Of a stretch of DNA of 64,000 nt, positions 1,208 to 54,526 are shown piece after piece (within the stretch, counting starts at the first letter, position 1; each line of letters starts with the position of its first letter). The DNA comes from Gemmatimonadota bacterium (GTDB lineage Bacteria; Gemmatimonadota; Gemmatimonadetes; Gemmatimonadales; GWC2-71-9). A program made the position numbers and the translations under genes. The stretch covers positions 1 through 64,000 of the forward strand of contig QHUK01000009.1 of the NCBI GenBank assembly GCA_003222085.1, written 5' to 3'. Under the pieces are notes generated by a model, which was not told the origin of the DNA, did not search any database, and was given only the letters and a program-made list of their open reading frames with translations.

Positions 1208-2558
1208 GGGTGCCTCGGTGTTCCGCTGTACCGACTGCGGCGCGGAGCAACCCAAGTGGGGCGGACGCTGCGAGGCGTGCGGCGCGTGGAATACCCTCGT
1301 CGAAGAGGCGGTAGGACGGACGGGCGGACGGGCCGACAGAAAGCACGCCGTTCCGTCCGGCAGTCCGCCCGTCCGGCTGTCCGCCGTGGGAGCGGCAGGG
1401 TTCGAGCGGTGGCAGACCGGTCTCCGAGAATTCGACTTCGTCCTCGGCGGCGGCATCGTACCGGGATCGGTGGTGCTCGTGGGCGGCGAACCGGGCATCG
1501 GGAAGTCCACCCTGCTGCTGCAATGCGCGGCGCGGCTCGAGCAAGCGGGCGTGCCCACGCTGTACGTGTCCGGGGAAGAGTCGCCCGATCAGATCCGGCT
1601 GCGGGCCGAGCGGCTCACGGTCGCCGCCGGCGCGGTGCACGTGCTGGGCGAAACGCGGCTCGAGGCGATCACCTATCACGCGCGTGCGCTGGGGGCCCGC
1701 GTCGTGTTCGTCGACTCGATCCAGACCACCTACACCGACGAGCTCGAAGGCGCGCCCGGGAACGTGGGCCAGGTGCGGGAGTGCGCCGCCCGGCTCATGC
1801 GTTTCGCGAAGGAGGCGGGGCCCGCCGTGCTGCTGGTCGGGCACGTGACGAAGGGCGGCGGCATCGCGGGCCCCAAGACCCTCGAGCACATCGTGGACAC
1901 CGTGCTCTACTTCGAGGGCGAGAGCACCCTGGACCACCGGATCCTGCGCGCCGTGAAGAACCGCTTCGGCTCCGTCGACGAGATCGGCGTGTTCGAAATG
2001 ACGGGCGCGGGTCTCGAGCCCGTGGCGGACCCGGCGGCCGCATTCCTCGCCGGGCGCACCACGGGTGTCTCCGGCTCCGCCGTGACCGCGCTGATGGAAG
2101 GCACGCGCCCGCTTCTGGTGGAGATCCAGGCGCTGGCGGCGAAAAGCGGCTTCGGCACGCCACAGCGAGTGGCCACCGGCCTCGACCACCGCCGCTTGGC
2201 CGTGCTGCTCGCCGTCCTCGAGCGCCGCGGCGGCCTGCCGTTCGGCGAGCGGGACGTGTTCGTGAACGTGACGGGGGGGGTGCGGTTGATCGAGCCCTCG
2301 ACCGATCTTGCCGTCGTGGCCGCCCTGGTCTCCAGCGTGCACGACCGACCGCTCCCGGCAGACGCCGTCTTCCTGGGCGAGGTCGGCCTGGGCGGCGAGA
2401 TCCGCCCGGTGGGGGCGGTCGAGCGGCGTCTCGGCGAAGCGGCGCGCCAAGGATTCCGCCGCGTCTTCCTGTCCGCCCGCTCGCGCGTGAGCCTGCCCGG
2501 GCTCGAGCTGGTCGGCATGGACGGCATCGGTGAGCTCGCCCGGCGACTCGCGGCCTGA
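1200..2558 (+). CDS. radA: DNA repair protein RadA (Sms)
   Basis: N-terminal zinc finger FRCTDCGAEQPKWGGRCEACGAWNTL, Walker A GGEPGIGKSTLLLQ, KNRFGSVDEIGVFEM, Lon-like C-terminus; GTG at 1200 overlaps dnaB stop (ORF track opens at 1158). Confidence 0.96.
   Translation: MVKGASVFRCTDCGAEQPKWGGRCEACGAWNTLVEEAVGRTGGRADRKHAVPSGSPPVRLSAVGAAGFERWQTGLREFDFVLGGGIVPGSVVLVGGEPGIGKSTLLLQCAARLEQAGVPTLYVSGEESPDQIRLRAERLTVAAGAVHVLGETRLEAITYHARALGARVVFVDSIQTTYTDELEGAPGNVGQVRECAARLMRFAKEAGPAVLLVGHVTKGGGIAGPKTLEHIVDTVLYFEGESTLDHRILRAVKNRFGSVDEIGVFEMTGAGLEPVADPAAAFLAGRTTGVSGSAVTALMEGTRPLLVEIQALAAKSGFGTPQRVATGLDHRRLAVLLAVLERRGGLPFGERDVFVNVTGGVRLIEPSTDLAVVAALVSSVHDRPLPADAVFLGEVGLGGEIRPVGAVERRLGEAARQGFRRVFLSARSRVSLPGLELVGMDGIGELARRLAA
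1314..1384. repeat. Inverted tandem-repeat element (8-nt word, GGACGGGC-like) inserted in frame in radA
   Basis: Left arm ggacggacgggcggacgggccgac (1314-1337), right arm gtccggcagtccgcccgtccggctgtcc; perfect 13-nt complementary core cggacgggcggac (1317-1329) / gtccgcccgtccg (1363-1375). Confidence 0.8.
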
Positions 2559-3234
2559 CGCGGGCGTCGTGGTCGTGGCGGCCGGCGCCGGGGTGCGGGC
2601 CGGCCCCGGCGAACCGAAACAGTTTCGGCCGATTCTGGGCGTACCGATGCTGTTGCGGGCGCTGCGGCCGTTCACTTCCCATCCCGACGTCGGGCAGGTG
2701 ATCGTGGTCGTGCCCACCGGATTCGAAGTACGGCCCCCCGAATGGCTGGGCAAGCTGGTGGGCGACCGGCTGGCACTTGTCGCCGGCGGGGCTACACGGG
2801 CCCAATCGGTGCGGGCGGGCCTCGGGGCGCTGCCGCCGCACGCCGCCGTGGTGCTGGTCCACGACGCCGCCCGCCCGTTCGTGACCCGGGAAACGATCGA
2901 CGGCGTGATCGCCAAGGCGCGATCGGGGGTAGGCGCCGTCGCGGCGATTCCGGTTTCCGACACCGTCAAAGACGTCGAGCAGGATCGTATCACGAGAACC
3001 GTCGCGAGAGACCGTTTGTGGCGGGCGCAAACGCCGCAGGGGTTCCCGCGAGCGATGATCGAGCGCGCGTACGCGGAGGTCGCGAACGGCGATACTGCGC
3101 CGACCGACGACGCAGAGCTGTGCGAGCGCGCAGGCTTCCCCGTGGAGGTCGTCCCTGATTCGCCGTACAATCTCAAGGTCACGACCGCCGACGATTTCCG
3201 AGTGGCGGAAGCGCTGGCGCGTGAGCTGCGGTGA
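2530..3234 (+). CDS. ispD: 2-C-methyl-D-erythritol 4-phosphate cytidylyltransferase
   Basis: VVVVAAGAGVRAGPGEPKQFRPILGVPML, VLVHDAARPFVT, RAQTPQGF, TDDAELCER. Confidence 0.93.
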   Translation: MSSPGDSRPDAGVVVVAAGAGVRAGPGEPKQFRPILGVPMLLRALRPFTSHPDVGQVIVVVPTGFEVRPPEWLGKLVGDRLALVAGGATRAQSVRAGLGALPPHAAVVLVHDAARPFVTRETIDGVIAKARSGVGAVAAIPVSDTVKDVEQDRITRTVARDRLWRAQTPQGFPRAMIERAYAEVANGDTAPTDDAELCERAGFPVEVVPDSPYNLKVTTADDFRVAEALARELR

Positions 3235-3884
3235 CCGTCGTCCCCTTCCGGACCGACGAGGCCGTGACGGCCGCGCTCCCTCGGGTGGTCGCGCATCTCA
3301 GCGCGGGCGGGTTGATCGCCTATCCGACGGAGACGGTATATGGCCTGGGCTCGCGGGCGCGGGGCCCCGAGGTGCAAGCGGTGGCCCGTCTCAAGGGCCG
3401 GCGGCCCGGCAAGCCATTCCTTTTGCTGGTCGCCGACCGGGACATGGCGGAAGAGCAGGGTCTCGCGTTCAACGAATCGGCGAGCGCGCTCGCGCGGGCG
3501 TTCTGGCCGGGACCGCTCACCCTGGTACTCCCGGGGGGGAGCGGGCGGCTGCCGGACCCGCTGCGCGGACCGGAAGGCGGGATCGCCGTCCGCTGGACGT
3601 CCCATCGCGGGATGGCCAGGTTGGTGCGTGCGCTGGGAGAGCCGGTGACGTCCACATCGGCTAACTTGCCGGGGAGTCCACCGGCACCGGGCGCCGAAGC
3701 GATAGTGCGGGACTTCGCGCCGGCGGTCGAGGCGGGGACGTTGCTCGTGCTGGACGGCGGGGTCCTGGGAAACTCGCCGCCGTCGACCGTCGTTGACTGC
3801 ACGCGGCCCGCGCCCCGCCTGATCCGGGAAGGGGCGCTGACGCTCGGCGAGTTGCGACGCGCGGCGGGACGACTCGCTCCGTGA
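3231..3884 (+). CDS. tsaC: Threonylcarbamoyl-AMP synthase (TsaC/YrdC/Sua5 family)
   Basis: GGLIAYPTETVYGLG, KGRRPGKPFLLLV, WPGPLTLVL, STSANLPGSP. Confidence 0.94.
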   Translation: MTVVPFRTDEAVTAALPRVVAHLSAGGLIAYPTETVYGLGSRARGPEVQAVARLKGRRPGKPFLLLVADRDMAEEQGLAFNESASALARAFWPGPLTLVLPGGSGRLPDPLRGPEGGIAVRWTSHRGMARLVRALGEPVTSTSANLPGSPPAPGAEAIVRDFAPAVEAGTLLVLDGGVLGNSPPSTVVDCTRPAPRLIREGALTLGELRRAAGRLAP

Positions 3885-4375
3885 CCGAGGAACCGAACAC
3901 GAAACGCATCCTGCTCGTTTGCACCGGAAACATCTGCCGCAGCCCGCTCGCGGCGGCGTTGCTCGATCGAGCCCTGGTGGAGCGCGCGATCGAGGGAATC
4001 GCAGTCACCTCGGCCGGCACCGGGGCCTGGGATGGCGCGCCGGTCTCCGAGGGAGCCTACCTCGTGGGCCTCGAGCGCGGGCTCGATCTGTCGGGCCACC
4101 GGGCGCGGCTCCTGACGCGCGAGCTCGTCGATGACGCCGACCTCATCCTGACCATGGCGCGGCACCACCGGGCGCGCGTGGACGAGCTGGGCGGCGAGGG
4201 TCACGTGTTCGTGCTGGGAGAGTACGCCGGCCGCGAGGGCGACGAGGCCGAGGTGAGCGACCCCTTCGGCGGCGACCTCGATGTCTACCGCGACACCTGC
4301 GCCGAGCTCGAGGCGCTGCTCCAGAACGCGGTGGATCGCATCGCCAAAGAGTTCGCGAGTGGAAGTCAACGCTAG
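3881..4375 (+). CDS. Low-molecular-weight protein phosphatase (YwlE-like arginine/tyrosine phosphatase)
   Basis: P-loop LLVCTGNICRSPLAAALL, SAGTGAWDGAPVS, C-terminal DPFGGDLDVY. Confidence 0.9.
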   Translation: MTEEPNTKRILLVCTGNICRSPLAAALLDRALVERAIEGIAVTSAGTGAWDGAPVSEGAYLVGLERGLDLSGHRARLLTRELVDDADLILTMARHHRARVDELGGEGHVFVLGEYAGREGDEAEVSDPFGGDLDVYRDTCAELEALLQNAVDRIAKEFASGSQR

Positions 4376-5180
4376 CACGCGCCTGCTGGCGGTGATCGGC
4401 GACCCCGTCGCCCATTCGCTTTCCCCCTCCATGCACAACGCCGCGATCGGCGTCCTCGGCCTGGATGCCGTGTACGTCGCGTTGCGCACGCCCGCCCCCG
4501 CACTGGTCACCGTCCTGGCCGCGCTCGCCGCCGTCGGCGGAGCGGGGAACGTGACCGTGCCGCACAAGGAAGCGGCCGAACGATGCGTCGCGCGGAAAAC
4601 CGATGTATGCGCCCGCGTGGGAGCGTGCAATACGTTTTGGACGGAGCAAGGAGCGCTTGTGGGCGACAACACCGACGTCGCGGGAATCCTGGCGGCCCTG
4701 CGCCAGCTCGGCGCCGACGGCGCCGGCAGCTGGCTCCTGGTCGGCACAGGCGGCGCCGCGCGCGCGGTGGCGGTGGCGGCGGCCGCGGCCAAGGCGAACC
4801 TGCACGTGCTGTCGCGCGACGCCGGGCGGGCGCGCGACTTCGCCGATTGGGCCCGCCAGCAGGGGACGCACGCAGCCGCGGCGCGGGGCACACTCGAGCC
4901 CGACATCGCCATCAACGCAACCCCCGCCGGCTTGAAGGACACCGATCCGCTGCCGCTCGACCCGGACAGCGCGGCACGGCTGCACGCCGCGCTCGACCTC
5001 GTGTATGCCCCCGGCGGCACCCGGTGGGTGCGCACGCTGACCGCTGCGGGCGTGCGGGCGCAGGACGGTCGCGAGGTGCTGGTACACCAGGGCGCGGCGG
5101 CGTTCGCCCGCTTCTTCCCGGATCAGACGGCGCCGCTCGAGGTGATGCGCGCCACCGTGAACCGCGCCCTTGGTGCGTGA
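4359..5180 (+). CDS. aroE: Shikimate 5-dehydrogenase
   Basis: LLAVIGDPVAHSLSPSMHNAAI, NVTVPHKE, GDNTDVAGI, LVGTGGAARAVA, INATPAGL; GTG 4359 likely start. Confidence 0.95.
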   Translation: MEVNASTRLLAVIGDPVAHSLSPSMHNAAIGVLGLDAVYVALRTPAPALVTVLAALAAVGGAGNVTVPHKEAAERCVARKTDVCARVGACNTFWTEQGALVGDNTDVAGILAALRQLGADGAGSWLLVGTGGAARAVAVAAAAAKANLHVLSRDAGRARDFADWARQQGTHAAAARGTLEPDIAINATPAGLKDTDPLPLDPDSAARLHAALDLVYAPGGTRWVRTLTAAGVRAQDGREVLVHQGAAAFARFFPDQTAPLEVMRATVNRALGA

Positions 5181-5934
5181 GGCGGTCGAGCAGCTCCTCC
5201 TGCCGGCCGAGTGTCTGCTGTGCCGCGCACTCCTCTCGTTCCGGGATGCCGCCCGGCTGGTGTGCGACGTATGCCGTCATCGCTGGCGCCCCATCCGTCC
5301 GCCGTGGTGCGCCCGCTGCGGGCAGCCGGAGCCGTTGTTCGGGCGCTGCCGGGTGTGCGCCGATTGGCCCACGGCCTTCGGCGTGGCGCGCTCCGCCGTG
5401 TGGCTCGAAGCGGGTGCGCGCGACGCGGTCCACGCGCTGAAGTACGGCGGCCTGCCGCGGATCGCCACGGACCTGGCGGCGGCCATGGCCGGGCTCGACG
5501 TCCCCGGGCGGGAGTCGGGCTTGCTCGTCCCCGTGCCGCTCTCGCACGCCCGCTTCCGGGACCGCGGCTATAATCAGAGCGAGCGCCTGGCGCGCGCCCT
5601 GGGTCGCCGCTGGCAGCGCCCGGTAGTCGACCTCCTGGTGCGCACACGGGACACCGCAGCGCAAACGGCGTTGACACCCGAGGCGCGGCTGGCGAACGTG
5701 GCGGGGGCGTTTGCAATGCGGAATGCCAAATGCGGAATGCGGAATGAGGGCCAACCTGGCAATTCCGCATTCCGAATTCCGCATTCCGCATTAGAACGGC
5801 CGCTCATTCTGGTAGACGACGTCTTCACCACCGGCGCCACGCTGGCCGAGGCCGCGCGAGCACTGGACCGGGCCGGAGCCCACACGGTGTCCGCCGTGAC
5901 CTTCGGCCGGGCGGTCGTGCCGGACTTCACCTAG
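5170..5934 (+). CDS. comF: ComF family phosphoribosyltransferase with internal repeat-derived insertion
   Basis: CLLCRALL...CDVC zinc motif, PVPLSHARFRDRGYNQSERLARAL, LILVDDVFTTGATLAEAARAL. Confidence 0.93.
   Translation: MVREAVEQLLLPAECLLCRALLSFRDAARLVCDVCRHRWRPIRPPWCARCGQPEPLFGRCRVCADWPTAFGVARSAVWLEAGARDAVHALKYGGLPRIATDLAAAMAGLDVPGRESGLLVPVPLSHARFRDRGYNQSERLARALGRRWQRPVVDLLVRTRDTAAQTALTPEARLANVAGAFAMRNAKCGMRNEGQPGNSAFRIPHSALERPLILVDDVFTTGATLAEAARALDRAGAHTVSAVTFGRAVVPDFT
5715..5792. repeat. Inverted tandem-repeat element (7-nt word GGAATGC) inserted in frame in comF
   Basis: Left arm 5715-5746 and right arm 5761-5792 are 32-nt near-perfect reverse complements (28/32 by eye), 14-nt loop; both arms are tandem ggaatgc units. 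Confidence 0.92.
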
Positions 5935-5943
5935 GGGAGAGCC

Positions 5944-8122
<2,179 letters not shown>

Positions 8123-8126
<4 letters not shown>

Positions 8127-8872
8127 GACCGCTGCTGTTCGCCGCCAACTGGAAAATGCACCTCGGGCCGGATGAAGCCCGAGCCTACTTGAAAGCTTTC
8201 CGCGCCCACTACAACCGTCACACGGATCGCGAGGTGTGGTTCTTTCCGCCCGCGGTGTCGGTCGAGGCCGCCGCCCAGGCAGCGCGCGAACGCGGCGACC
8301 TGCTGGTGGGCATCCAGGACATCCATTGGGAGCCGAAGGGCGCTTTCACGGGTGCGGTCTCCGCCCCACTCGCCCTTCAGGCAGGAGCCCGCGCTTCGCT
8401 GATCGGGCACTCCGAGCGGCGCCACGTGTTCGGCGAGACCGACGACGACACGCGTCGTAAGGTGGGCGCGGCCCTGGCGGCCGGGTTGCTGCCGGTGTTG
8501 TGCGTCGGGGAGACGCTCGCCGAACGCGACGCGGGGCACACGCTGGCGGTGGTCGTCCGCCAGCTCGCGGCGGCGCTGAGCGGCTTGGACGGCGCCGCGC
8601 TGTCGCGGGTCGTGGTCGCGTATGAGCCCGTGTGGGCGATCGGCACCGGCCGCAACGCGACCCCGCAAGATGCCGGCGCGGTGCATCGCGAAATCCGCGC
8701 CTGGCTCGCGGGCCGCGCAGCTCCGGCGCCTCGGGTCCTCTACGGCGGCAGTGTGAGCGCGAAGAACGTCGCCGCGCTCCTCGCCGAGCGCGAGCTCGAC
8801 GGCGTGCTCGTGGGCGGCGCGTCGCTCGATCCCGAAGGCTGGGCGCAACTTGTGCAGACGGACGCCGCGTAG
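8123..8872 (+). CDS. tpiA: Triosephosphate isomerase
   Basis: LLFAANWKMHL, ASLIGHSERRHVFGET, VVAYEPVWAIGTGRNATP, LYGGSVSAKN, DGVLVGGASL. Confidence 0.98.
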
Positions 8873-8888
8873 GTATTATCCCCGCCGC

Positions 8889-9266
8889 ATGTACACCTTG
8901 CTGCTGATTCTTCTCACGCTCGACGCACTGATTCTCACGACGGCGGTCCTGCTGCAGGCGGGCCAGGGCGGGGGCCTCGCGTCGCTCGGCGGCGGCGCCG
9001 GTACGGAGCAGTTCATGGGTGGCCGCCAGGCCACGACCCTGCTCACCAAAGTCACCTGGTGGTGCGCCGGCATCTTCCTGTTCGTGTCGCTGATCCTCGC
9101 GGTCATGTCGGCGCACAGCGCGGCGCCCCGCTCGGTGCTCGAGGGAGGCGCTCCCGCGCCGGCCCCCGTGCAGCCCACGCCTCTCCCGCTCCCGGGAGCG
9201 CAAACGCCGCAGAACACGCCGCCCCCCCCCAAACCCTCGAACCCGAGTCCACCGCCCCATCGCTGA
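8889..9266 (+). CDS. secG: Preprotein translocase subunit SecG with Pro-rich tail
   Basis: LLLILLTLDALILTTAVLLQAGQGGGLASLGGGAGTEQFMGGRQATTLLTKVTWWCAGIF. Confidence 0.9.
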   Translation: MYTLLLILLTLDALILTTAVLLQAGQGGGLASLGGGAGTEQFMGGRQATTLLTKVTWWCAGIFLFVSLILAVMSAHSAAPRSVLEGGAPAPAPVQPTPLPLPGAQTPQNTPPPPKPSNPSPPPHR

Positions 9267-9282
9267 CCGTCACCCCGCCTAC

Positions 9283-10362
9283 GTGCTCCTCGAGGACGGC
9301 GCCTGGTTCCCCGGTACCGCGCCGACGCCGTTCGAGCCCACGTATGCCGAGGTTGTCTTCACCACCAATCTGTCCGGCTACCAGGAGGTCTTCACCGATC
9401 CGTCCTATCTCGGCCAGATCGTTGTGATGACGGCGCCGATGATCGGCAACTACGGAATCAATCCGGACGACGTCGAGTCCGACCGCCCGCGGGTCGCGGG
9501 CGTCGTGGTGCGCGAGCTCTCGGTGCAGCCGTCGAACTGGCGGTCCACGGGCGCCCTCGCGGATTGGCTCGCCGCCGCCCGCGTGCCACTCGTCGCCGAT
9601 GTGGACACGCGCCAGGTCACGCGCTATATCCGATCCAAGGGCGCGATGCGGGGTGCGGTCGCATTGGGCGAGCAGCCGAACGATGCCGTGCGCGCGGCGC
9701 TGGCCGCGAGCCCGTCGATGGATGGCCTCGATCTCGCCACCCAGGCGACTATCTCCGCGGAGTACACGGTAGGGCCAGCCGACGCGCATCGTCACATCGT
9801 GGCGTACGATTACGGGATGAAGCGCAACATCCTGCGCCTGTTTCTCAAGAACGGCTGCCGCGTCACCGTCGTCCCCGCGGCCACGCCGGCCGCGCGCATC
9901 CGGGAGCTCGCGCCTGATGGTCTATTTCTCTCGAATGGCCCCGGAGATCCGGCGGCGGTGTCCTACGCTATTGCCACGCTGCGCGATCTCGCCGACGGCT
10001 CACTCCCCATTTTCGGGATCTGCCTCGGCCACCAGCTGCTCGGTCTGGCGCTCGGGGGGGAGACTGCAAAGCTCCCCTATGGACATCGGGGAGGGAACCA
10101 CCCGGTACGGGATCTTGCAACCGGACAAGTACTTATCACCTCACAAAACCACGGCTTCGCGGTCCGGGGCGATACGGGCGGCGTCCCCGGTGCCAAGGCG
10201 CTTGAGGTCACGCACCTTAACCTCAACGACGGCACCGTCGAAGGGGTGAAGCACCGGGAATACCCGATTTTCGCCGTGCAGTACCATCCCGAGGCCTCAC
10301 CGGGACCGCACGACGCCCAGGGCCATTTCGAACAGTTCCTCCAAGCTCTTGACACACAATAG
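9283..10362 (+). CDS. carA: Carbamoyl-phosphate synthase small subunit
   Basis: LEDGAWFPGTAPT, VVFTTNLSGYQEVFTDPSYLGQIV, GNYGIN, FGICLGHQLLGLA, SQNHGFAV, FAVQYHPEASPGPHDA. Confidence 0.97.
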   Translation: MLLEDGAWFPGTAPTPFEPTYAEVVFTTNLSGYQEVFTDPSYLGQIVVMTAPMIGNYGINPDDVESDRPRVAGVVVRELSVQPSNWRSTGALADWLAAARVPLVADVDTRQVTRYIRSKGAMRGAVALGEQPNDAVRAALAASPSMDGLDLATQATISAEYTVGPADAHRHIVAYDYGMKRNILRLFLKNGCRVTVVPAATPAARIRELAPDGLFLSNGPGDPAAVSYAIATLRDLADGSLPIFGICLGHQLLGLALGGETAKLPYGHRGGNHPVRDLATGQVLITSQNHGFAVRGDTGGVPGAKALEVTHLNLNDGTVEGVKHREYPIFAVQYHPEASPGPHDAQGHFEQFLQALDTQ

Positions 10363-10377
10363 GTAAGCCCGTATGTT
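10349..10377 (+). promoter_or_regulatory. Sigma70-like promoter for HU gene
   Basis: TTGACA (10349-10354), 17-bp spacer, TATGTT (10372-10377), 44 nt upstream of HU ATG at 10421. Confidence 0.65.
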
Positions 10378-10420
10378 GGCCCCTCGTCTTGACTGCCCTT
10401 GGGCCCTTCAAGGGGGATGG

Positions 10421-10735
10421 ATGACGAAGGCCGACCTGGTCGAAAAGGTCACCGCACAAATCGCTCGCACCGCCGGTCCCCTCATTTCCAAAAAGGACTG
10501 CGCGCGCGTGGTTGACTCCTTTCTCGACGCGGTCAAAGCGGCGCTGGCCGAGCAGCATAACATTGAGATTCGCGGATTTGGCACGTTCAAGATCCGCCAG
10601 CGCAAGACCCGCATGGCGCGCAACCCGCGTACCGGCGACCCGGTGGAAGTCGCCGCGCGACCGGTGCCTGTCTTCAAGCCCAGCAAGGAGTTGCGCGCCA
10701 TGGTGGCGGAAGCGAGCGAACGCGTCACACCCTGA
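10421..10735 (+). CDS. HU/IHF family DNA-binding protein
   Basis: MTKADLVEKVTAQIA, IEIRGFGTFKIRQRKTRMARNPRTGDPVEVAARPVPVFKPSKELR. Confidence 0.97.
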   Translation: MTKADLVEKVTAQIARTAGPLISKKDCARVVDSFLDAVKAALAEQHNIEIRGFGTFKIRQRKTRMARNPRTGDPVEVAARPVPVFKPSKELRAMVAEASERVTP

Positions 10736-10761
10736 CGCGTCCCCGAGCCAAGGTCATCCTG

Positions 10762-10796
10762 GCGGCCCGGACTAAACGTCTGGGCCGCTTCGTTTT
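10762..10796 (+). terminator. Rho-independent-like terminator after HU gene
   Basis: gcggcccgga-ctaaacg-tctgggccgc stem followed by ttcgtttt. Confidence 0.7.
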
Positions 10797-10838
10797 GCGC
10801 GGGGTAGTAGTCACACCCTCACCCTCCCGGAGTCGTTC

Positions 10839-12626
10839 GTGCGCCGCTTGCTCGTGTTGCTCGTCGCCGTTCCGTTGTCCGCCCAAACCCCAGTCAAGTA
10901 CGAAGTTTCGATTCCGTCGCCTGCGGCGCGTCTGTTCCACGTGAGCGCCGATTTTCCGACGCGCGGCAAGGACACGTTGTACGTGTCGCTGCCCGCGTGG
11001 AGTCCCGGCAGTTACGAAATCCAGAACTACGCGCGCTACGTGCGCCACTTCGGCGCGAAGGGCGCCGCCGGTCAACCGCTGTTCTGGGATCGGTTCGACA
11101 AGGACACGTGGCGGGTCGTGACGGGCAAGGGCGATCGCGTGACCGCGGAGTTCGACTTTCTCGCCGACACCATCGATCTCTCGTCGGCGCGCATCGCGGG
11201 AGACTTCGGCCAGTTTCTCGGCACCAATCTCTTTCTTTACGAGGAAGGGCAGCTGGAGCGGCCGGCCGAGGTCCGATTCACCCTGCCCGCGGGCTGGCAG
11301 GTGACGACGGCGCTGCGGGGCGGCGGAAATGGGCCGTACAGCGCGCCGAGTTACCACGAGCTCGCCGACGCCGAGACCTTCGTGGGGAAGTACAGCCTCG
11401 ATTCGTTGCAGGTGGACGGCAAGTGGATCCGGATCGCCGTGTGGCCGGCCGACGCGTACACGAACGCGGTGCAGCGGAACATGCGGACCGCGGTCGAGAA
11501 GATCGCGAAGAGCGAGAACGCGCTGTTCGGCGGCCCCCCGTACGATCACTACACGGTGTTCTTCAACGTGATCCGCGAGCCGGTCAACTTTGGCGGCGGG
11601 TTGGAGCACAGCGCCTCTCAGTTCGACATCATACCCCAGGGCGCGTTTGCCGATGCGGCGGGTAACTTCGGCGACTTCATGGTGCCGCTGATGTCACACG
11701 AGTACTTCCACCTGTTCAACGTGAAGCGCATCCGGCCCGCGGAAATGTGGCCCTACGACTACCACGCCGAGCAATACACACCGTTGCTCTGGTGGTCGGA
11801 GGGTGTGACGGACTACTACGCCGATCTCACCAACATCCGTTCCGGTCTCTGGACACGGGAGCAGTTCCTCGACAATGCCGCGCAGGACATGCAACAAGTC
11901 GAGTCCGCCCCCGAGCCGTGGAGCGAAGAGGACGGCAGCGTGGCGACCTGGATCCACGAAGTCTTCGTGAACAGCTCGCAGCTCTATTACCCGAAGGGCG
12001 CGCTCACCGGGATGCTGCTCGACGTGGCGCTCCGCGACGCAACGGACAACCGCAAGAGCCTCGACGACGTCACGCGGGCGCTCTACACGCGTTTCTACCA
12101 GCGCCACAAGGGCTTCACGACCACCGACTTGCTCGGCTTGCTGCGCGAGGTCGGCATGCCGGACGTAGACGGCTTCTATCTTCGCTACATCAACGGGCGG
12201 GAAGCGCTCCCCTACGACAGCGTGTTTGCCAAGGCCGGTATCGCCGTCGTCCGGAAGACCCTGTCCAGCCCGTTCCTCGGCCTGAACGCCCAGCCCGGCG
12301 ACTCCGGCAAGCTCGTGGTGCAGGGCGTGGTGCCCGGGAGCGCCGCGGAGGCGGCGGGCCTCGAGCCCGGCGATGTGCTGCTCAAGGTCGGTGAGGTCGA
12401 GACCCGGCCCGACGAGGACTGGGGCGTGAAATTCCGCGAGCGGTACCGGGGCCAGGCGGGGGCGCCGCTCGCCATCGGCGTGACGCGCGGCGGTCGGGCG
12501 CTGAGTCTGAGCACGCAGGTGCGCGAGCGTACCGTGGTGTCGTTCACACTCACGCCCGCGTCGACCCCGAGCGCCAAACAGGCAAGGATCTGGCGCGGCC
12601 TAGCGACCGGTTCCACCGGCAACTGA
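10839..12626 (+). CDS. Secreted M61 family peptidase (glycyl-aminopeptidase-like) with C-terminal PDZ domain
   Basis: N-terminal signal-like segment, LMSHEYFHLFNVKRIRP, LLWWSEGVTDYYADL, PDZ-like VVPGSAAEAAGLEPGDVLLKV. Confidence 0.9.
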   Translation: MRRLLVLLVAVPLSAQTPVKYEVSIPSPAARLFHVSADFPTRGKDTLYVSLPAWSPGSYEIQNYARYVRHFGAKGAAGQPLFWDRFDKDTWRVVTGKGDRVTAEFDFLADTIDLSSARIAGDFGQFLGTNLFLYEEGQLERPAEVRFTLPAGWQVTTALRGGGNGPYSAPSYHELADAETFVGKYSLDSLQVDGKWIRIAVWPADAYTNAVQRNMRTAVEKIAKSENALFGGPPYDHYTVFFNVIREPVNFGGGLEHSASQFDIIPQGAFADAAGNFGDFMVPLMSHEYFHLFNVKRIRPAEMWPYDYHAEQYTPLLWWSEGVTDYYADLTNIRSGLWTREQFLDNAAQDMQQVESAPEPWSEEDGSVATWIHEVFVNSSQLYYPKGALTGMLLDVALRDATDNRKSLDDVTRALYTRFYQRHKGFTTTDLLGLLREVGMPDVDGFYLRYINGREALPYDSVFAKAGIAVVRKTLSSPFLGLNAQPGDSGKLVVQGVVPGSAAEAAGLEPGDVLLKVGEVETRPDEDWGVKFRERYRGQAGAPLAIGVTRGGRALSLSTQVRERTVVSFTLTPASTPSAKQARIWRGLATGSTGN

Positions 12627-12649
12627 AGGCGGCTATCTTGCCAACGGCC

Positions 12650-12913
12650 ATGGACACCGCGACGCCGGCCAGGGTGCGGGTGCTGTTTTTCGCCCGCTAC
12701 GCGGAGCTCGTCGGACGCTCCGAGGTCGCCGTGTCGCTGCCGCTCCCGGCCACGGTGGGGGATGTGGTGCGGCGCGTGCGCCAGGACTTTCCCGGCGCCC
12801 AGGCCCTGCCCGAGCGCCCTCTCGCGGCCGTGAACCTGAAGCAGGCCAAGCTCGAGGCGGGCGTGCAGGACGGAGATGAGGTAGCGCTGCTGCCGCCCAT
12901 TGCGGGCGGGTGA
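12650..12913 (+). CDS. moaD: Molybdopterin synthase small subunit MoaD
   Basis: RVLFFARYAELVGRSEVAVSLP...LAAVNLKQAKLEAGVQDGDEVALLPPIAGG with terminal GG. Confidence 0.93.
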   Translation: MDTATPARVRVLFFARYAELVGRSEVAVSLPLPATVGDVVRRVRQDFPGAQALPERPLAAVNLKQAKLEAGVQDGDEVALLPPIAGG

Positions 12914-12915
12914 TT

Positions 12916-12991
12916 CCCAGGCTGAAGCCTGGGCCCGACCCGACACTGTCCTTAAGGACAGTGCCGTGTCGGGCACACCCTTCAGGGTGTG
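12916..12991. repeat. Three consecutive palindromes between moaD and moaE
   Basis: cccaggc-tgaa-gcctggg; cccgacac..cactgtcctt/aaggacagtg..gtgtcggg; cacaccct-tc-agggtgtg. Confidence 0.85.
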
Positions 12992-13046
12992 AACAACGAG
13001 GGGATCTACGACGTACCTGACCCGGACTCCAATCTCTCTGGACGCC

Positions 13047-13452
13047 TTGGTTGCCGAGGTCGCCCAACCCGCGTGCGGCGGTACATGCCTGTTCCTGGGC
13101 ACCGTGCGCGATGGGCCCGACGAGCATGGGGTGACGGCGATCGAGTACTCGGCGTACGAAGCGATGGTGGACGCGGAGTTCGGACGGCTCCTGGCGGACG
13201 CGCGCGATCGTTGGCCCGAGGCGCGCATCGCCGTTCGACACCGGCTGGGCACGATCCCGGTCGGGGAGGCGAGCATCGCGATCGTCGCGGCGGCGCCGCA
13301 TCGAGCCCAGGCGTTCGAGGCCTGCCGCTACGTGATCGAAGGCGTGAAACAGCGGATCCCCGTGTGGAAGAAGGAGCTGCGGGTGGACGGGACCGAAGTG
13401 TGGGTCGACCCGTCCGGCCGTCCCACCGTCCGCCCGTCCGACCATCCGTCCC

Positions 13453-13460
<8 letters not shown>
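13047..13460 (+). CDS. moaE: Molybdopterin synthase catalytic subunit MoaE with repeat-encoded C-terminus
   Basis: CGGTCLFLGTVRD, IEYSAYEAMVDAEF, AVRHRLGTIPVGEASIAI, RAQAFEACRYVIEGVKQRIPVWKKE; start uncertain. Confidence 0.93.
13411..13452. repeat. Single-armed 8-nt tandem repeat (CGTCCGNC)n at moaE 3' end
   Basis: cgtccggc cgtcccac cgtccgcc cgtccgac catccgtc; shares 13-mer gtccgcccgtccg with the radA element. Confidence 0.75.
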
Positions 13461-15428
<1,968 letters not shown>

Positions 15429-15496
15429 TCAGTCATCCGTGATCCGTCATCCGTTGCTTCCACCGTCTCCACGGACGACGGATGACGGATGACTGA
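15429..15496. repeat. Inverted tandem-repeat element (7-nt word GTCATCC) at convergent mdh/sdhB junction
   Basis: Left arm 15429-15454, right arm 15471-15496: 24/26 complementary by eye, 16-nt loop; begins directly after mdh stop and contains sdhB stop. Confidence 0.92.
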
Positions 15497-16228
15497 CGAC
15501 GGCCTTTAAGTAATCCCGATTCAGTCGTGCAATGAAGTCGATCGAAATCTCCTTCGGGCACGCCGCCATGCATTCGCCGTGGTTGCTGCACGCCCCGAAC
15601 CCCTCCGCGTCCATCTGCGCCACCATGCCGACGACGCGGGCGGCGCGCTCCGGCTGGCCCTGCGGCAGGAGCCCCAGATGGGACACCTTCGCCGCCACGA
15701 ACAGCATCGCCGACGCGTTGGGGCACGCGGCCACGCAGGCGCCGCACCCGATGCAGGCGGCGGCGTCCATTGCCAGGTCGGCGTCGGCCTTCGGAACCAG
15801 GAGCGAGTTCGCTTCCGGCGCGCTCCCGGTGCGCGCGGTGATGAACCCACCGGCCTGGATGATGCGGTCGAAGGCGCCGCGGTCCACCACGAGATCCTTG
15901 ATCACCGGGAAAGCCCGCGCCCGCCACGGCTCGATCCATAGCTCGGCCCCGTCCGGGAACGAGCGCATGTGCAGCTGGCACGTCGTGGTGGCGCGCCGCG
16001 GCCCGTGCGGGCGGCCGTTGATGACCATGCCGCACGCCCCGCAAATCCCCTCGCGGCAGTCGTGGTCGAATGCGATCGGATCATCCTGGCGCGCCAGCAG
16101 CTGCTGGTTCAACACGTCCAGCATCTCGAGGAACGACATGTCGGGACTCACGTCCGTCATGTCGTAGCGGACGAAGACTCCCGCGAGCTCCGGCCCCGGC
16201 TGCCGCCAGACGTGCAGCGTCACGCGCA

Positions 16229-16229
<1 letters not shown>
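15447..16229 (-). CDS. sdhB: Succinate dehydrogenase/fumarate reductase iron-sulfur subunit
   Basis: [56 protein letters not shown]-terminal [15 protein letters not shown] encoded by the repeat element. Confidence 0.96.
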
Positions 16230-18142
<1,913 letters not shown>

Positions 18143-18923: not shown

Positions 18924-19325
18924 ATGCTCTTGACGCTTTGCAAGTCAAAGCTCCACCGCGCGACGGTCACCCGGGCGGAGCTGCACTACGAAGGCAGCAT
19001 CACCATCGACAGCGAGCTGCTCGCGGCCGCAGGTGTCCTGCCGTTCGAGCGGGTCCAGGTGGTGGACATCGCCAACGGGGCGCGATTTGAGACGTACGCC
19101 ATCGCAGGCAGCGGGGCATCGCGCTCGGTGTGCGTGAACGGCGCGGCCGCGCGGCTCGTCCACGTCGGCGATCCGATCATCGTCATCAGCTACGCCCAGA
19201 TGACGCCCGACGAGGCAGCCCGTCACCGTCCGACGATCGTGCTGCTCAACGCCGACAACTCGATCCGCGAGACGCTCGCCGGCGACCCGAGCACGCCCAT
19301 CGAAGTGCTCTCGGAGTCGGCGTGA
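18924..19325 (+). CDS. panD: Aspartate 1-decarboxylase
   Basis: MLLTLCKSKLHRATVTRAELHYEGSITIDSELL; GSI processing site; GAAARLVHVGDPIIVISYAQM. Confidence 0.97.
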   Translation: MLLTLCKSKLHRATVTRAELHYEGSITIDSELLAAAGVLPFERVQVVDIANGARFETYAIAGSGASRSVCVNGAAARLVHVGDPIIVISYAQMTPDEAARHRPTIVLLNADNSIRETLAGDPSTPIEVLSESA

Positions 19326-20647
19326 CCGAGCCCGCCACCGCCACCGAGCCCCGCGCGGTGCTCCGCAACCAGGCGCCGGTCCCCTCACGCCCGGCGACCG
19401 GCCGCCCCACCGTCGTCATCGTGGGCGCGGGATTCGGGGGCCTGCGCGCCGCGCGCGCGCTGCGCAAGACCCCCGTCGACGTCGTGCTCGTCGATCGCCA
19501 CAATTACCATCTGTTCCAGCCGCTCCTCTACCAGGTCGCGACCGCCGGCCTCGAGCCCGAGCAGATCGCCCGGCCGGTACGCGCCATCCTGCGCCGCCAG
19601 TCCAACACCGAGTTCCGGATGACGGAGGTGACGGGCCTCGACCCGAGCGGGAAGCGCATCGTCACCACCGACGGGCCGATCGCCTATGACTACCTCATCC
19701 TGGCCGTGGGCGGCGAGACGAACTTCTTCGGCCTGGAGAGCGTGCCGCGGCACGGGTTTGGTCTCAAGGACATCCCGGAAGCGATCCGCATCCGCAATCA
19801 CGTGCTGCACGCCTTCGAGCGCGCCATGCTCGAAGCCGATCCCGAGCGCCGCCGGGCCGAGCTCACGTTCGTCGTGGTGGGCGGCGGCCCGACGGGCGTC
19901 GAGATGGCGGGAGCGCTCTCGGAGCTGATCCGGCTCGTCCTGGTGAAGGACTACCCGCGCCTCAACATCAAGGACGTGCGCGTGCTGCTCCTCGAGGCCA
20001 CCGACCGGCTGCTCGCGGCCATGCCCCCCCGGCTGCGGGAGGCCGGCGCCGAGACGCTGTGGCGCAAGCACGTAGAGGTTCGATTCGGGGCGACGGTCGC
20101 GGACTACGACGGTGCCCGGGTCTCCCTCAAGAGTGGTGAGGTGATCCCGGCGAGCACGCTCATCTGGGCGGCAGGCGTGAAAGCCGTGTCCCTCACGGGT
20201 CGGCTCGGATTGCCGACGGCGCAGCAGGGCCGGGTGGCGGTGGACCCGACCCTCGAAGTGCCGGGTCATCCGGGTATCTACGTGATCGGCGACGCGGCCT
20301 ACCTCGAAGTGGCCGGAGCCCCGCTGCCCATGATGGCCCCGGTCGCGATCCAGATGGCCGAGACCGCGGCCGAAAACATCCGGCGCCGCATCGCAGGCGA
20401 GCCCGCCGTGCAGTTCCGCTACCGCGACCCGGGGTCGCTCGCCACGATCGGGCGGAACGCGGCCGTCGCCTACATCCGCGGGATCGGGTTCACGGGATTC
20501 CCGGCGTGGGTGGTGTGGCTGGTCGTCCACATCATCCAGCTCATCGGGTTCCGCAACAAGCTGTTCGTGCTGCTGAACTGGGCGTGGGATTATTTCTTTT
20601 ACGAGCGCGCCGCGCGGCTCATTACAGAACTAGGGACTCGGGACTAG
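19322..20647 (+). CDS. ndh: Type II NADH dehydrogenase (NAD(P)/FAD-dependent oxidoreductase)
   Basis: VVIVGAGFGGLRAARAL, VDRHNYHLFQPLLYQVATAGLEPEQIA, VVVGGGPTGVEMAGALSEL, GIYVIGDAAYLE. Confidence 0.95.
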   Translation: MTEPATATEPRAVLRNQAPVPSRPATGRPTVVIVGAGFGGLRAARALRKTPVDVVLVDRHNYHLFQPLLYQVATAGLEPEQIARPVRAILRRQSNTEFRMTEVTGLDPSGKRIVTTDGPIAYDYLILAVGGETNFFGLESVPRHGFGLKDIPEAIRIRNHVLHAFERAMLEADPERRRAELTFVVVGGGPTGVEMAGALSELIRLVLVKDYPRLNIKDVRVLLLEATDRLLAAMPPRLREAGAETLWRKHVEVRFGATVADYDGARVSLKSGEVIPASTLIWAAGVKAVSLTGRLGLPTAQQGRVAVDPTLEVPGHPGIYVIGDAAYLEVAGAPLPMMAPVAIQMAETAAENIRRRIAGEPAVQFRYRDPGSLATIGRNAAVAYIRGIGFTGFPAWVVWLVVHIIQLIGFRNKLFVLLNWAWDYFFYERAARLITELGTRD

Positions 20648-20700
20648 GGACTCGGGGCTCGGAGGCGGTTCCGAGTCCCCAGCCCCGAGCCCCGAGCCCC
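20633..20700. repeat. Inverted tandem-repeat element (7-nt word GGGRCTH) at convergent ndh/zinc-ribbon junction
   Basis: Left arm gggactc gggacta gggactc ggggctc gga; right arm is reverse complement of ggggctc ggggctc ggggctg gggactc gga, in register. Confidence 0.92.
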
Positions 20701-20922
20701 GGTCGCACGCACCCGCCGCACCACGCCGTCCCACCCGCACTCGAGACACCAGCGTCGTTGCAGCGCGGGCAGCAGGCGGTCCAAGAACCGGTTTCGGAGC
20801 GGCACCATCTCGATGCCACAGTGCGGACAGAGGGGACCCCGCGGCAGCAGCAGGTAGACCACCGCGGTGACGATCGCGACCCGCATCACCACGGTCACGA
20901 GCAGAACCAGCACGACCAGCAT
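20644..20922 (-). CDS. Small membrane protein with C-terminal zinc ribbon
   Basis: N-terminal TM MLVVLVLLVTVVMRVAIVTAVVYLLL, then CPHCG...CLECGW; last residues encoded by the repeat. Confidence 0.6.
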   Translation of the reverse strand: MLVVLVLLVTVVMRVAIVTAVVYLLLPRGPLCPHCGIEMVPLRNRFLDRLLPALQRRWCLECGWDGVVRRVRATGARGSGLGTRNRLRAPSP

Positions 20923-23536: not shown

Positions 23537-25404
23537 GCGACGAGCAGCACGACGCGCTCCAACGACTCGAGCGGCGGGTCGAAGTGCTGGAGCAGGTGGT
23601 GCGGCGGCTGCTCGCGTCCGGGGCCGCTGCCGAGCGCATCGCCGCGGCACCCGCGCCCCCCCCTCTCCCCGCTCCGCCCCGGCGCGCTCAGCCGACCCCA
23701 GACCCAGCCCCCGAATCGCCGCTGTCCTCGTCACCACCACCCCCGGCCGCCGACTTCGAGCAATGGTTCGGCCAGCGCGGCCTGTTGGTGGTGGGCGTGC
23801 TCGCGCTGCTGACGGCGGCAGGCTTCTTCCTGAAGTACGCCTTCGATCGCGGCTGGATCGCTCCGGTGGTCCGCTCGCTGCTCGCGATCGTGGCCGGTAT
23901 CGCACTGGGCGCGTGGGGGGAAGCGCGCATCCGCGGCGGGTTGCGGCGCTACGGCGCGGCGATGATCGGCGCCGGCGGAGGCCTCGCGTACCTCGGTCTG
24001 TGGGCAGCCGCCGGGCCGTACGGGTTGCTCGAGCGTCGTATCGGCGTGCTCCTCCTCGCTGCGTGCACGATCGTCGTGACCCTGCTCGCGCTGCGTCACG
24101 AGATCGAGGGACTGGCGATCTGGGCGCTCGCCGGCGCGTACCTGGCTCCGATCCTGCTCCCCCCGCCGACGCCCAACCCCGAAGCCTTCCTGGGGTACCT
24201 CGAAGTGATCGGCCTCGGCACCGGCCTCCTCGCCTATACGATGAGCTGGCGCCGAGCGTTCGACCTGGCACTCGCCGGCTACTTCCTCCTGGCCCCGGCC
24301 GGAGCTGCCCGACTGCTATCCAGCGCGGTCGGCTGCTGGTTTCTCGCCGCCGGCGCGCTGCTGACCCTGCACGTCACGCGACGGCGCGCCTGGCCGGAGG
24401 CGCGGGTCGGGTTCCTGGTGCTCGCGTGGGTCCTGCTCGCTGTCGCGATCGCCGGCATGAGCGACGGCCCCGAGCCGCGGCTCTGGCTCGCCGTCGCCGC
24501 GGCATTCGCGATCGCAGCCCTGCTGTGGTGGCAGGAGCTCGACTTGAATCGGCTCAGAGCCCCCGACGAAGCCCTGCTGTTCGTCGTGAATCCCTTCGTG
24601 CTGCTCGGACTCGTGGCGATGGCGGATCCCAAGTTGCTCGACCGGGAGCCGGCCCTGTTACCCGGACTGCTGGCGGCTGTGTATCTCGGCGTCGGCTGGG
24701 CCCGACGCGCCACCCCGCACCTGGTCATGGGATTTGCGCTGGCCGCCTGGGCGGTCGCGGCACAGGGGAGCCCGCCCACGGTCGTCGTCGGCTGGACCGC
24801 GCTCGCTCTGGCGGGGCTCGCGGCCGAGCAACTGGGCGGCCGGCCGGGCGGGCGGCTCGCCGCGCTCGGGCTCGCCCTGCTCGCGTTCCCCTGTCTCTTC
24901 GGCGTGGCCCTCTGGTCCCGACCGTCGGACGCCACGACCTTCAGCGATGCCTGGGCGCTGGCCCTGTACGGCTACGTCGCGGGCACGGCACTGGCCGCGC
25001 GCCGCTGGAACGCGGGAGTGAAGCACCCGGGGACTGCGCGCTGGACCGCGCGCGGCGAAGAGCTGCTCTGGGTGCTGTGCGGAGCGGCGGTGTTTGCGGG
25101 CGGGTCGGTCGAGCTGCCGCGCTACTTCGGAGAGCGCGCTCCCCTCGCCGGGGACCTCGCCCTGAGTGTCTTCTGGCTGGTCTACGCGGCCGCCATTGTA
25201 CGAATCGGGTTCCAGCGCGACCGCAAAGACGTCCGCTCGGCCGGGCTTGCGGTCGCCGCAGGCGCGGGACTCAAGATCGTGCTCTACGACCTCTCGAACC
25301 TCGAGGCGTTGTACCGGATCGCGTCGTTTTTCGCCCTCGCCCTCATCGCGCTGGCGGTTGCTTACGCGTACAACAGAAGGGCGGCGTCAAGCAGAGACGT
25401 CTAA
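23533..25404 (+). CDS. DUF2339-like multi-pass membrane protein
   Basis: Coiled-coil start, Pro-rich segment, FEQWFGQRGLLVVGVLALLTAAGFFLKYAFDRGWI and many TM segments. Confidence 0.82.
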   Translation: MSDEQHDALQRLERRVEVLEQVVRRLLASGAAAERIAAAPAPPPLPAPPRRAQPTPDPAPESPLSSSPPPPAADFEQWFGQRGLLVVGVLALLTAAGFFLKYAFDRGWIAPVVRSLLAIVAGIALGAWGEARIRGGLRRYGAAMIGAGGGLAYLGLWAAAGPYGLLERRIGVLLLAACTIVVTLLALRHEIEGLAIWALAGAYLAPILLPPPTPNPEAFLGYLEVIGLGTGLLAYTMSWRRAFDLALAGYFLLAPAGAARLLSSAVGCWFLAAGALLTLHVTRRRAWPEARVGFLVLAWVLLAVAIAGMSDGPEPRLWLAVAAAFAIAALLWWQELDLNRLRAPDEALLFVVNPFVLLGLVAMADPKLLDREPALLPGLLAAVYLGVGWARRATPHLVMGFALAAWAVAAQGSPPTVVVGWTALALAGLAAEQLGGRPGGRLAALGLALLAFPCLFGVALWSRPSDATTFSDAWALALYGYVAGTALAARRWNAGVKHPGTARWTARGEELLWVLCGAAVFAGGSVELPRYFGERAPLAGDLALSVFWLVYAAAIVRIGFQRDRKDVRSAGLAVAAGAGLKIVLYDLSNLEALYRIASFFALALIALAVAYAYNRRAASSRDV

Positions 25405-25499
25405 CGCAGACGTCAAGCAGAGGCGTCGAACAGAACCGTGACTACGGTCCTGCTTGACGTTGTTGTGCGACGTTTCTGCGCGACGTCTTTACTCGACGT
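25384..25499. repeat. Inverted tandem-repeat element (13-nt word CGTCNAGCNGANN) at convergent DUF2339/dcd junction
   Basis: cgtc-type anchors repeat every 13 nt on the left arm and, reverse-complemented, on the right arm in the same register; apex accgt-gact-acggt (25435-25448). Confidence 0.9.
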
Positions 25500-25501
25500 C
25501 G

Positions 25502-26062
25502 TTACAGTTTCGGCAACGTGATCCCTTTTTGACCCTGATATTTGCCTTTCTTGTCTTTGTAGCTGACCTCGCACTCGTCTCCCTCGTCGGCCGTGAAGAA
25601 CAGCACCTGGGCAATCCCCTCGTTGGCGTAGATCTTCGCGGGGAGGGGCGTCGTGTTCGAGATCTCCAGCGTGACGAAGCCCTCCCACTCGGGCTCGAAC
25701 GGCGTCACGTTGGTGATGATGCCGCAGCGGGCGTACGTGCTCTTGCCGACGCAGATCGTCAGGACGTTACGGGGAATGCGGAAATATTCGACGGATCGGG
25801 CGAGGGCGAAGGAATTCGGCGGCACGATACACACGTCGCCCGTGAACTCGACGAACGATTTCGTATCGAAGCGCTTGGGATCCACCACCGCCGAGAGCGC
25901 GTTGGTGAAGATTTTGAACTCGGGTGCGACCCGCATGTCGTAGCCGTAGGACGAGACGCCGTAGGAGATCACACCCGCGCGCGACTGGTTTTCCGCGAAC
26001 GGCTCGATCATGCGGCGCTCGGTCGCCATGCGTCGGATCCAGCGATCGGACTTGATGGACAT
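25502..26062 (-). CDS. dcd: dCTP deaminase
   Basis: [81 protein letters not shown]. Confidence 0.97.
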
Positions 26063-26551: not shown

Positions 26552-26646
26552 GACGTCAAGCGAACGCGTCAAGTGAATGCGTAGCACAAGGACGTCGCCC
26601 GACGCAGTTGCGCGACGCCTCCGCGAGACGTTTCTGCTAGACGGGG
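26552..26646. repeat. Inverted tandem-repeat element (13-nt word, same family as 25384-25499) between nuoA and nuoB
   Basis: cgtc anchors at 26554, 26567, 26580, 26593; gacg anchors at 26601, 26614, 26627, 26640 (period 13); starts directly after nuoA stop. Confidence 0.9.
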
Positions 26647-29692: not shown

Positions 29693-29767
29693 GAACCGAA
29701 CGCGGAAGTCGGAACGCGGAAGTCGGAACACGCTGTTCCGCGTTCCGCGTTCCACGTTCCACCTTCG
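29693..29767. repeat. Inverted tandem-repeat element (7-nt word CGGAACG) between nuoE and nuoF
   Basis: ccgaacg cggaagt cggaacg cggaagt cggaaca - cgc - tgttccg cgttccg cgttcca cgttcca; apex ggaaca-cgc-tgttcc; starts directly after nuoE stop. Confidence 0.92.
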
Positions 29768-47004: not shown

Positions 47005-47909
47005 AGCTCCGTGACGTGCTCAAGCCCGAGCACATCCTCGTGCCCCTCCGCGCCGCCACTGTCAAAGAGGCGACCGAGCGCCTGGCCGAGCGCCTCATCG
47101 CCGCAGGGGCGGTGGCCGATCCCCAGCGCCTCAACGCCGTGATCCGGCATACGTGGCCCGAGGACATGGTGAGCGTTGGGGAGCACGCGTTTCTGCCCCA
47201 CTTCCGTTCGGAGGCCGTGCGCGGCCTCGTCACGGCGGTCGGCATTTCCCCCACGCCGATCCACTGGGAGAAGGATCCGCACCGCACGGCGCGGGTCGTG
47301 ATCTTCATTGTGGCGCCGATGCGTGACGCGGCCCTCTACCTCCAGGTCGTGGGCGCGTTCGCCCGCACGCTGTCGCATCCCGATACCGTGCTCGGGCTGC
47401 TCGCGGCGCGCACGCCGGAGCAGGTCGTCACGCTCGCTGCGCTCGACGCGGTGGAGTTGCCGAGCCAGCTCACGGTGCGCGACGTCATGACCGCCCAGGC
47501 GATCACCGTCGGCCCGGAGCGCACACTGGGTGACGTCGCCCGCCTCATGGTGGAGCACGACATCCGCGCACTGCCGGTGGTGGACGACGGCGGCTCGCTC
47601 ATCGGGATGATCACCCACCGCGAGCTGCTGCGCTTTCTGATCCCTCACTTCGTGCAGCGGACCAAGAGCGGGGAGTTTCACGTACCCACGCGCTCCCAGC
47701 TGCAGCGCGGCTCGGCCGACCCGCAGCTCATCCCGGCGAAGGAGGCCATGGCTCGGTCGGTCCTCTGCCTGGCGGAGGACCAGACGCTCGCGGACGTCGC
47801 CAATTTGATGAGTTCCAAGGATGTCGACCGCTTCCCGGTGGTCCGGGAGGGGGTCGTCGTCGGATTCCTGACGCGCGCCGACGTGGTTCGCCGCCTCATC
47901 GCCCCTTAG
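47001..47909 (+). CDS. PTS EIIA type-2-like domain fused to CBS domain pair
   Basis: N-terminal EIIA-like with [17 protein letters not shown], then [40 protein letters not shown] and second [33 protein letters not shown]. Confidence 0.87.
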
Positions 47910-47981
47910 CCCCTTAGCCCCTTAGCCCCTTAGCCCCTTAGCCCCTTAGCCCCTTAAGCCCCCTAGCCCCTTAGCCCCTAG
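47902..47981. repeat. Single-armed tandem repeat (CCCCTTAG)10 upstream of ndk
   Basis: Six perfect 8-nt units (47902-47949) then CCCCTTAAG, CCCCCTAG, CCCCTTAG, CCCCTAG; stop codon of preceding gene lies in unit 1. Confidence 0.97.
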
Positions 47982-47990
47982 CCCCTCCAC

Positions 47991-52126: not shown

Positions 52127-52140
52127 GAGAATTGGTGGAG

Positions 52141-52881: not shown

Positions 52882-52912
52882 TCGTTTCCCCACACCTCCA
52901 TTGAGGGGGCCC

Positions 52913-53164: not shown

Positions 53165-53168
53165 GCGC

Positions 53169-54413: not shown

Positions 54414-54415
54414 TG

Positions 54416-54526
54416 CGAACGCGGAACGGGGAACCCGGAACGCGGAACCGAGGTGCGTGCTCAGCGCTCACGGGCCCGCACCGAAGTGTGCATGGCTGGT
54501 CCGCGTTCCGGCTTCCGCGTTCCGCC
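54416..54526. repeat. Inverted tandem-repeat element (7-nt word GCGGAAC) between fabF and mqnE
   Basis: Left arm gcggaac ggggaac ccggaac gcggaac (54422-54449), right arm 54499-54526 complementary in register (25/28 by eye). Confidence 0.88.

Follow-up and report, generated by a model that had tools for sequence, protein, structure and literature searches.

Inverted arrays of short tandem words at gene ends in a Gemmatimonadota genome occupy sites shared with related species and change their word between species

Among described repeats, the closest to those reported here are the heptamer arrays of Xanthomonas, two species of which carry 186 and 183 (GGGANTN)n arrays of the GGGAATC type, with positions 1-4 and 6 of the unit conserved (Rehm et al. 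2015, PMC4692102). About 90% of these arrays are intergenic and near the 5' neighbouring ORF, 70 and 75 convergent inverted pairs are present in the two species, and most arrays have the same neighbouring genes in the two species but vary in sequence; no function was found (PMC4692102). The counterpart heptamer in Nostoc and Anabaena is GGGGA(C/T)T (PMC4692102). TAACTGA arrays of marine Beggiatoaceae, by comparison, are situated mostly directly upstream of start codons and are direct repeats of a single fixed word, with one inverted case among 169 sets (PMC4679880). In many bacteria, no other long simple repeats are reported to be as common as heptamers, and polymerase geometry or size has been put forward to explain this (PMC4679880, PMC4692102).

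The elements of the Gemmatimonadota genome studied here (G000) are foldbacks, in which a tandem array of a short word is followed by its reverse-complement array. Like the Xanthomonas arrays they contain degenerate heptamers with a conserved core, form convergent inverted pairs, and occupy sites shared between species while varying in sequence. However, Xanthomonas and Nostoc have one word per genome, described as G-quadruplex simple sequence repeats, whereas here there are about a dozen families, with one word in 20 of 56 foldbacks; in further contrast to Xanthomonas, the periods are 7, 8, 10 and 13, there are words without G-tracts and in-frame cases, other phyla are involved, paired arms are the rule for the main family, and words switch species-wide. 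The Xanthomonas GGGAATC system shares this architecture but uses a single word, and with its 70-75 convergent pairs it is the closest known precedent, in place of the cyanobacterial STRR repeats named by the original prediction. What our elements share with STRR repeats and with Beggiatoaceae TAACTGA is that they are intergenic heptamer arrays occurring sporadically across phyla. Like MITEs, they have inverted ends, no genes and empty sites in relatives, but their arms are tandem arrays, their words switch at conserved sites and they show no constant target duplication. REP, BIME and REPIN elements are tied to Y1 (RAYT) transposases and are not known to contain heptamer arrays. Our elements resemble these (e.g. 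PMC3116915) in being short, dispersed, palindromic and extragenic, and differ in that a Y1 transposase was not found in G000. Neither multi-word foldback families nor species-wide word switching was described in the literature covered, mostly papers available without subscription, and a literature search by sequence strings gave nothing relevant.

The window, the whole stretch of DNA that was analysed, comprises 64,000 nucleotides (bases 1-64000 of contig C12) of G000, a 3.54-Mb genome in 70 contigs from an uncultured bacterium, and the named relatives of the G000 NuoF belong to Gemmatimonadota metagenome-assembled genomes. Searches also extended to other genomes, nine from the genus of G000 and fifteen from its family. 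In the window, Tandem Repeats Finder reports paired arrays at 1317/1353, 5715/5762, 15428/15471, 20629/20671, 25385/25456-25481, 26554, 29698/29735 and 54417/54500; the arrays at 13410 and 47901 are single. Together with locus-by-locus inspection of sequence and fold, this confirmed every locus of the original prediction, namely eight foldbacks and single arms at moaE and ndk. A strict detector, which demands two arrays of equal period, no more than 150 nt apart, whose reverse complements align, finds six foldbacks in the window and none in 20 block-wise dinucleotide shuffles. Applied to 849 kb, or about 24% of the genome, it finds 56 (40 of period 7, eight of period 8, seven of period 10 and one of period 12) and none in two shuffles, counts that are slightly redundant because the G000 bin contains two versions of the first 18 kb. 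Reversing the second arm without complementing it left one match in the 849 kb, and complementing it without reversing left eight, the latter indicating that short G+C-rich words match loosely. The arms of the 13-nt loci at 25385 and 26554 are more degenerate and fall below the strict cut; these loci are seen by Tandem Repeats Finder, by direct reading and in relatives, and G001 has an array of period 13. The elements have a median folding z-score of -6.1. Genome-wide, G000 probably contains a couple of hundred such hairpins, between and sometimes inside genes, with arms that repeat a 7-10 letter word.

The second version of the first 18 kb is on contig C55, which, read from 18064 to 1, is collinear with window positions 1-18073 at 87-90% identity. 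The comF gene has GGAATGC in one version and GGAACGC/GGAAGTC in the other, and the element at 15428 is missing from the C55 version. The pair could reflect a strain mixture, a contaminant or a real duplication, and one version may derive from a co-occurring relative.

Two of the foldbacks (coordinates here are given without strand), originally placed at the radA and comF loci, are real but lie inside the reading frames. The 8-nt word CGGACGGG forms a 69-nt element (1317-1385) that is in frame in the radA ORF (1200-2558), in the linker that joins the zinc finger to the ATPase domain. The 7-nt word AATGCGG (GGAATGC) forms a 78-nt element (5715-5792) that is in frame in comF (5170-5934) just before the LVDDV motif and reads as protein AMRNAKCGMRNEGQPGNSAFRIPHSAL; the comF orthologue of G001 has GGATTGC at the same place, and G000 has several other intragenic foldbacks. 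A single arm of the 8/16-nt word CCGTCCGN (13410-13448) coincides with the C-terminal end of moaE. Between the convergent genes mdh (14478-15428) and sdhB (15447-16229, minus strand) there is a GTCATCC foldback (15428-15502), at whose site sister species have other words or are empty, G009 having the right arm only. The GGGACTC/GGGGCTC foldback at the 3' end of ndh (20629-20701; ndh, 19322-20647) provides the TAG stop of that gene and is absent from G004 and G006. A foldback of the 13-nt word CGTCNAGCNGANN (25385-25505), shorter or absent in sisters, separates the convergent DUF2339 gene (23785-25404) and dcd (25502-26062, minus strand), and a degenerate foldback of the same word (26554-26636), absent from G009, G002 and G003, is found between nuoA and nuoB. 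GGAACGC foldbacks lie between nuoE and nuoF (29698-29766) and between fabF and mqnE (54417-54528). Lastly, a single tandem array of GCCCCTTA (47901-47986; about 10.8 copies), without an inverted partner, is positioned just upstream of ndk (47991).

About a dozen recurrent word families dominate the G000 foldbacks. GGANNGC, in its GGAACGC, GGAATGC and GGATTGC forms, makes up about half, and the other families include CGGACGGG, GGAGGNNGGN, GTCATCC, CACGACGC, GGGGCTC, CGGGAAA and AAGCCGC. The commonest single word occurs in 20 of the 56 foldbacks, and three GGAACGC units with no more than three mismatches are found at 259 places in the genome versus three for the reversed control. The expectation that words differ between loci thus holds in that there are several words, but not in the sense of one word per locus; the recurrent multi-word architecture, as originally proposed, is not explained by a single MITE or REP family. 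GTCATCC, CACGACGC, AAGCCGC, GGATTGC, GGAACGC and the Bacteroidetes word AAATGTGA have no GGG tract, and some minor families (GGGGCTC, CGGGAAA) have one.

The families have a fixed polarity. Among pairs within 150 nt, the word comes first in 50 and the reverse complement first in none (24:0 for GGANNGC alone); the word of each family was defined from the first arm, so that one element per family is uninformative and the remainder informative. Variable bases also fall at fixed phases, as had been predicted. In 148 GGAACGC units, phases 1-7 vary by 0.7, 4.7, 0, 0.7, 30, 22 and 11%, so that phases 1-4 remain at 0-5% and phases 5-7 reach 11-30%. In GGAGGNNGGN, phases 6, 7 and 10 vary by 48%, 44% and 26%, respectively, and the other phases by 0-11%, and comparable limits apply to GTCATCC, to CGGACGGG and to AAATGTGA of a Bacteroidetes locus. 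Variation is phase-limited in eight word sets, which suggests a core that is read rather than free mutation.

We also note several related arrangements. Same-word inverted arms stand 225-430 nt apart in nested or expanded elements at C62:57332-57839, C14:19974-20299 and C62:102156-102457 of G000, and one of these wide-spaced pairs encloses another array family. Contig C38 also carries another kind of dispersed element, about 120 nt long (L176:4879-5000), which has 80-90% identical copies in most sister genomes and is more conserved than the heptamer foldbacks. Viral contigs contain three exact matches to GGAACGC arrays, none as this foldback, and the IMG/VR contig L266 carries at 3056-3113 a GTTGAGA foldback of the same architecture.

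Where genes were called with a hexamer model, an arm starts within about 10 nt of the stop codon at 34 of 41 gene-stop edges, and convergent gaps often consist of the element alone, which fills them almost exactly. TGA is the stop codon at 27 of the 41 edges compared with 479 of 776 genome-wide; edge usage is so close to that of the genome that TGA is not a target.

Occupancy of these sites is conserved beyond chance expectation between species and between genera. G000 and G001 share four of seven sites (Fisher p = 1.4e-4), and G000 and G024, which belongs to another genus, share two of three (p = 0.005). The nuoE/F site has a foldback in seven of ten species with four words, GGAACGC (G000, G007), GGATTGC (G001, G008), GGAATGC (G006) and AATGTCC (G002, G004), and is empty in G003, G005 and G009, where stop and start codons abut or overlap. 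The spelling at this site is the commonest of its genome in five of five cases, an outcome that random draws from the genome pools could also produce (probability about 0.12, product of counts). At C38:15264, a foldback directly follows one shared stop codon in all sister species with sequence across the site, spelled GGAACGC, GGATTGC or GGAGTGC/GGAATGC, with two versions in the G008 bin. G001 and G009 are sisters on the NuoF tree and their DNA is 92% identical over 99 kb; the spelling differs at all five shared GGANNGC sites compared. Genome-wide counts of ATTGC/AATGC/AACGC are 46/29/143 in G000, 211/61/16 in G001, 11/159/8 in G006 and 14/13/208 in G009. GGANNGC therefore exists in species dialects (AACGC, AATGC, ATTGC and AGTGC forms), with G005 and G008 mixing spellings, which makes a strict single reader of one word unlikely. 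At conserved sites the word is replaced in both arms, and the retention by relatives of the hairpin site with another word suggests that something rewrites whole hairpins together. At the orthologues of C38:19346 (L245, L247, L249, L251, L253, L256), single purine-rich heptamer arrays with differing words (ACGGGAA, GGGGAGA, GGGAGCA) occur between stop and start codons, where they possibly serve as ribosome-binding regions.

The account we favour, tentatively and with slightly less than even confidence, is that a few families of small non-coding foldbacks are mostly inherited in place at gene ends and that their arms evolve in concert. Slippage inside single arms, together with copying from one inverted arm to the other out of register, would renew the units, and a new spelling could spread through the whole element by the same two routes. 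Spellings may pass between elements too, by copying or under a shared selective pressure. The arrival of a new copy might leave a short target duplication, ATGA-like or, in one instance, 18 bp long, and the hairpin might promote loss through excision between such short repeats. From the invariant core phases we suggest that the word may be read by a putative factor, probably a DNA- or RNA-binding protein. Within-element concerted evolution is supported by the spelling shared between arms, which is greater within than between elements in G000 (0.57 versus 0.38) and in G001 (0.80 versus 0.37); against it, G009 has no excess within-element homogeneity (0.74 versus 0.73). At C38:17496 a spacer of about 42 nt (GTTGCC...GGGTTTCTTTTCC), bare in four species, is older than its arms, which are GTCATCC in G000 and in one G008 contig and CACGACGC in G001 and G005. 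Shared arm spelling, single arms and arms around an older spacer all fit local homogenisation; as for how words switch, we infer the mechanism. The original prediction also had the two arms in the same register, which is true of the phase of the word but not of the unit variants. The order of variants is not matched between arms (z = 0.93, with a realigned score below the unit-shuffled mean), and there is hence no sign that the stem is kept by in-register copying or by selection for pairing; recent copying between arms must be out of register, or else the copying is old. The arms show no in-register covariation, and in-register foldback copying is unsupported.

The main rival, which we consider possible but unlikely, is that these are MITE- or REPIN-like mobile elements whose arms are terminal arrays of binding sites, with a putative transposase for each word family. 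Dispersed copies in many genomes, the fixed polarity and the binding-site-like conservation of phases are all as expected of such elements, and the interiors of longer elements (about 120 nt) align between loci and species, matching G009 and G007 at 75-80%. There are also empty sites and short duplications, on which the favoured account draws as well. At fabF/mqnE, which has GGATTGC in G001, the element lies between two ATGA copies where G009 is empty and has an ATGA stop/start overlap, and at another site a G009 element is flanked by 18-bp repeats; there, G001 has a single copy of the repeat, and G007 has two diverged copies separated by an apparent arm remnant. Pooled flanks, however, give no clear or constant target duplication signal in a permutation test (229, 68 and 17 of 300 permutations reach the observed value at 12, 16 and 25 nt, respectively). 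Elements may have been gained, with duplications of varying length, or lost, by excision between short repeats, and at any one site either direction is plausible. Presence and absence differ between species, and no jump was observed. We find no gene between distant arms among the pairs listed, and thus no autonomous copy, and loops are not recent near-identical copies (best pair 19 versus a shuffle maximum of 16, a slight excess). A Y1 (REP/RAYT) transposase does not appear to be the driver, as PF01797 was not found in G000 (93% complete), G007 (94%), G006 or G003, all incomplete assemblies. Mobility also sits poorly with occupancy that is kept between genera while words switch, and with arms that bracket an ancestral spacer.

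It is less probable still that the elements are functional RNA hairpins, acting as intercistronic terminators or mRNA stabilisers with base pairing under selection, as the original prediction had allowed for RNA or DNA structure. The stable folds would suit such a role, as would their placement inside operons, in the gaps of convergent gene pairs and immediately downstream of stop codons. Selection on structure nevertheless gains no support, since G.T and A.C mispairs are about equally frequent in the transcribed sense (14 versus 17), leaving no RNA strand bias, and paired variants are lacking. A U-tract follows the hairpin in one of 48 cases, which argues against Rho-independent termination, and the window has no Rfam match at gathering score. 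Moreover, some elements are in frame in ComF and RadA, and sites are empty in close relatives.

A purely local origin, in which every locus acquires its array afresh by slippage and its inverted arm by foldback template switching, appears improbable. Single-arm arrays, the lone right arm of G009 at the 15428 site, arms that flank an older spacer and the prevalence of heptamers among long simple repeats (PMC4679880, PMC4692102) are compatible with it. It fails, however, because variants are out of register between arms, a dozen words recur genome-wide and are common to several species, polarity is fixed at 50:0 and core phases are invariant. Of the slippage and template switching originally proposed, then, local homogenisation is retained and de novo origin is not.

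The architecture is not confined to Gemmatimonadota. Among 71 nuo loci (1.21 Mb) from outside the phylum, 13 foldbacks fall in five loci's worth of sequence from four phylum-level groups. The carriers are a Nitrospira, two gammaproteobacteria and a Bacteroidetes metagenome-assembled genome in which five or more words occur. In several relatives at family level, 20-kb samples contained no foldbacks. The densest case encountered is Bacteroidetes SZAS-41 (L090, 1820-17534), with eight foldbacks and at least five words in 21 kb. It is conceivable, though we think it rather doubtful, that a trans-acting system widespread in bacteria reads, and perhaps writes, the word at fixed sites in a species dialect, much as telomere repeats track the template they are copied from and arrays of binding sites track their protein. 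An assembly or binning artefact is very improbable: although G000 is a metagenome-assembled genome and C55:1-18064 repeats C12:1-18073 as two related versions in one bin, the same architecture recurs at orthologous sites in further assemblies from the genus, in a second genus and in genomes unrelated to it.

Fixed phases and fixed polarity, combined with coordinated switching at inherited sites, are hard to obtain from slippage alone. These features turn the question of bacterial heptamers into a testable one, through comparison of sister species in which a given site is empty, keeps the old word or has the new one. A factor that reads the word, if there is one, would have hundreds of intergenic targets in each genome, across several phyla.
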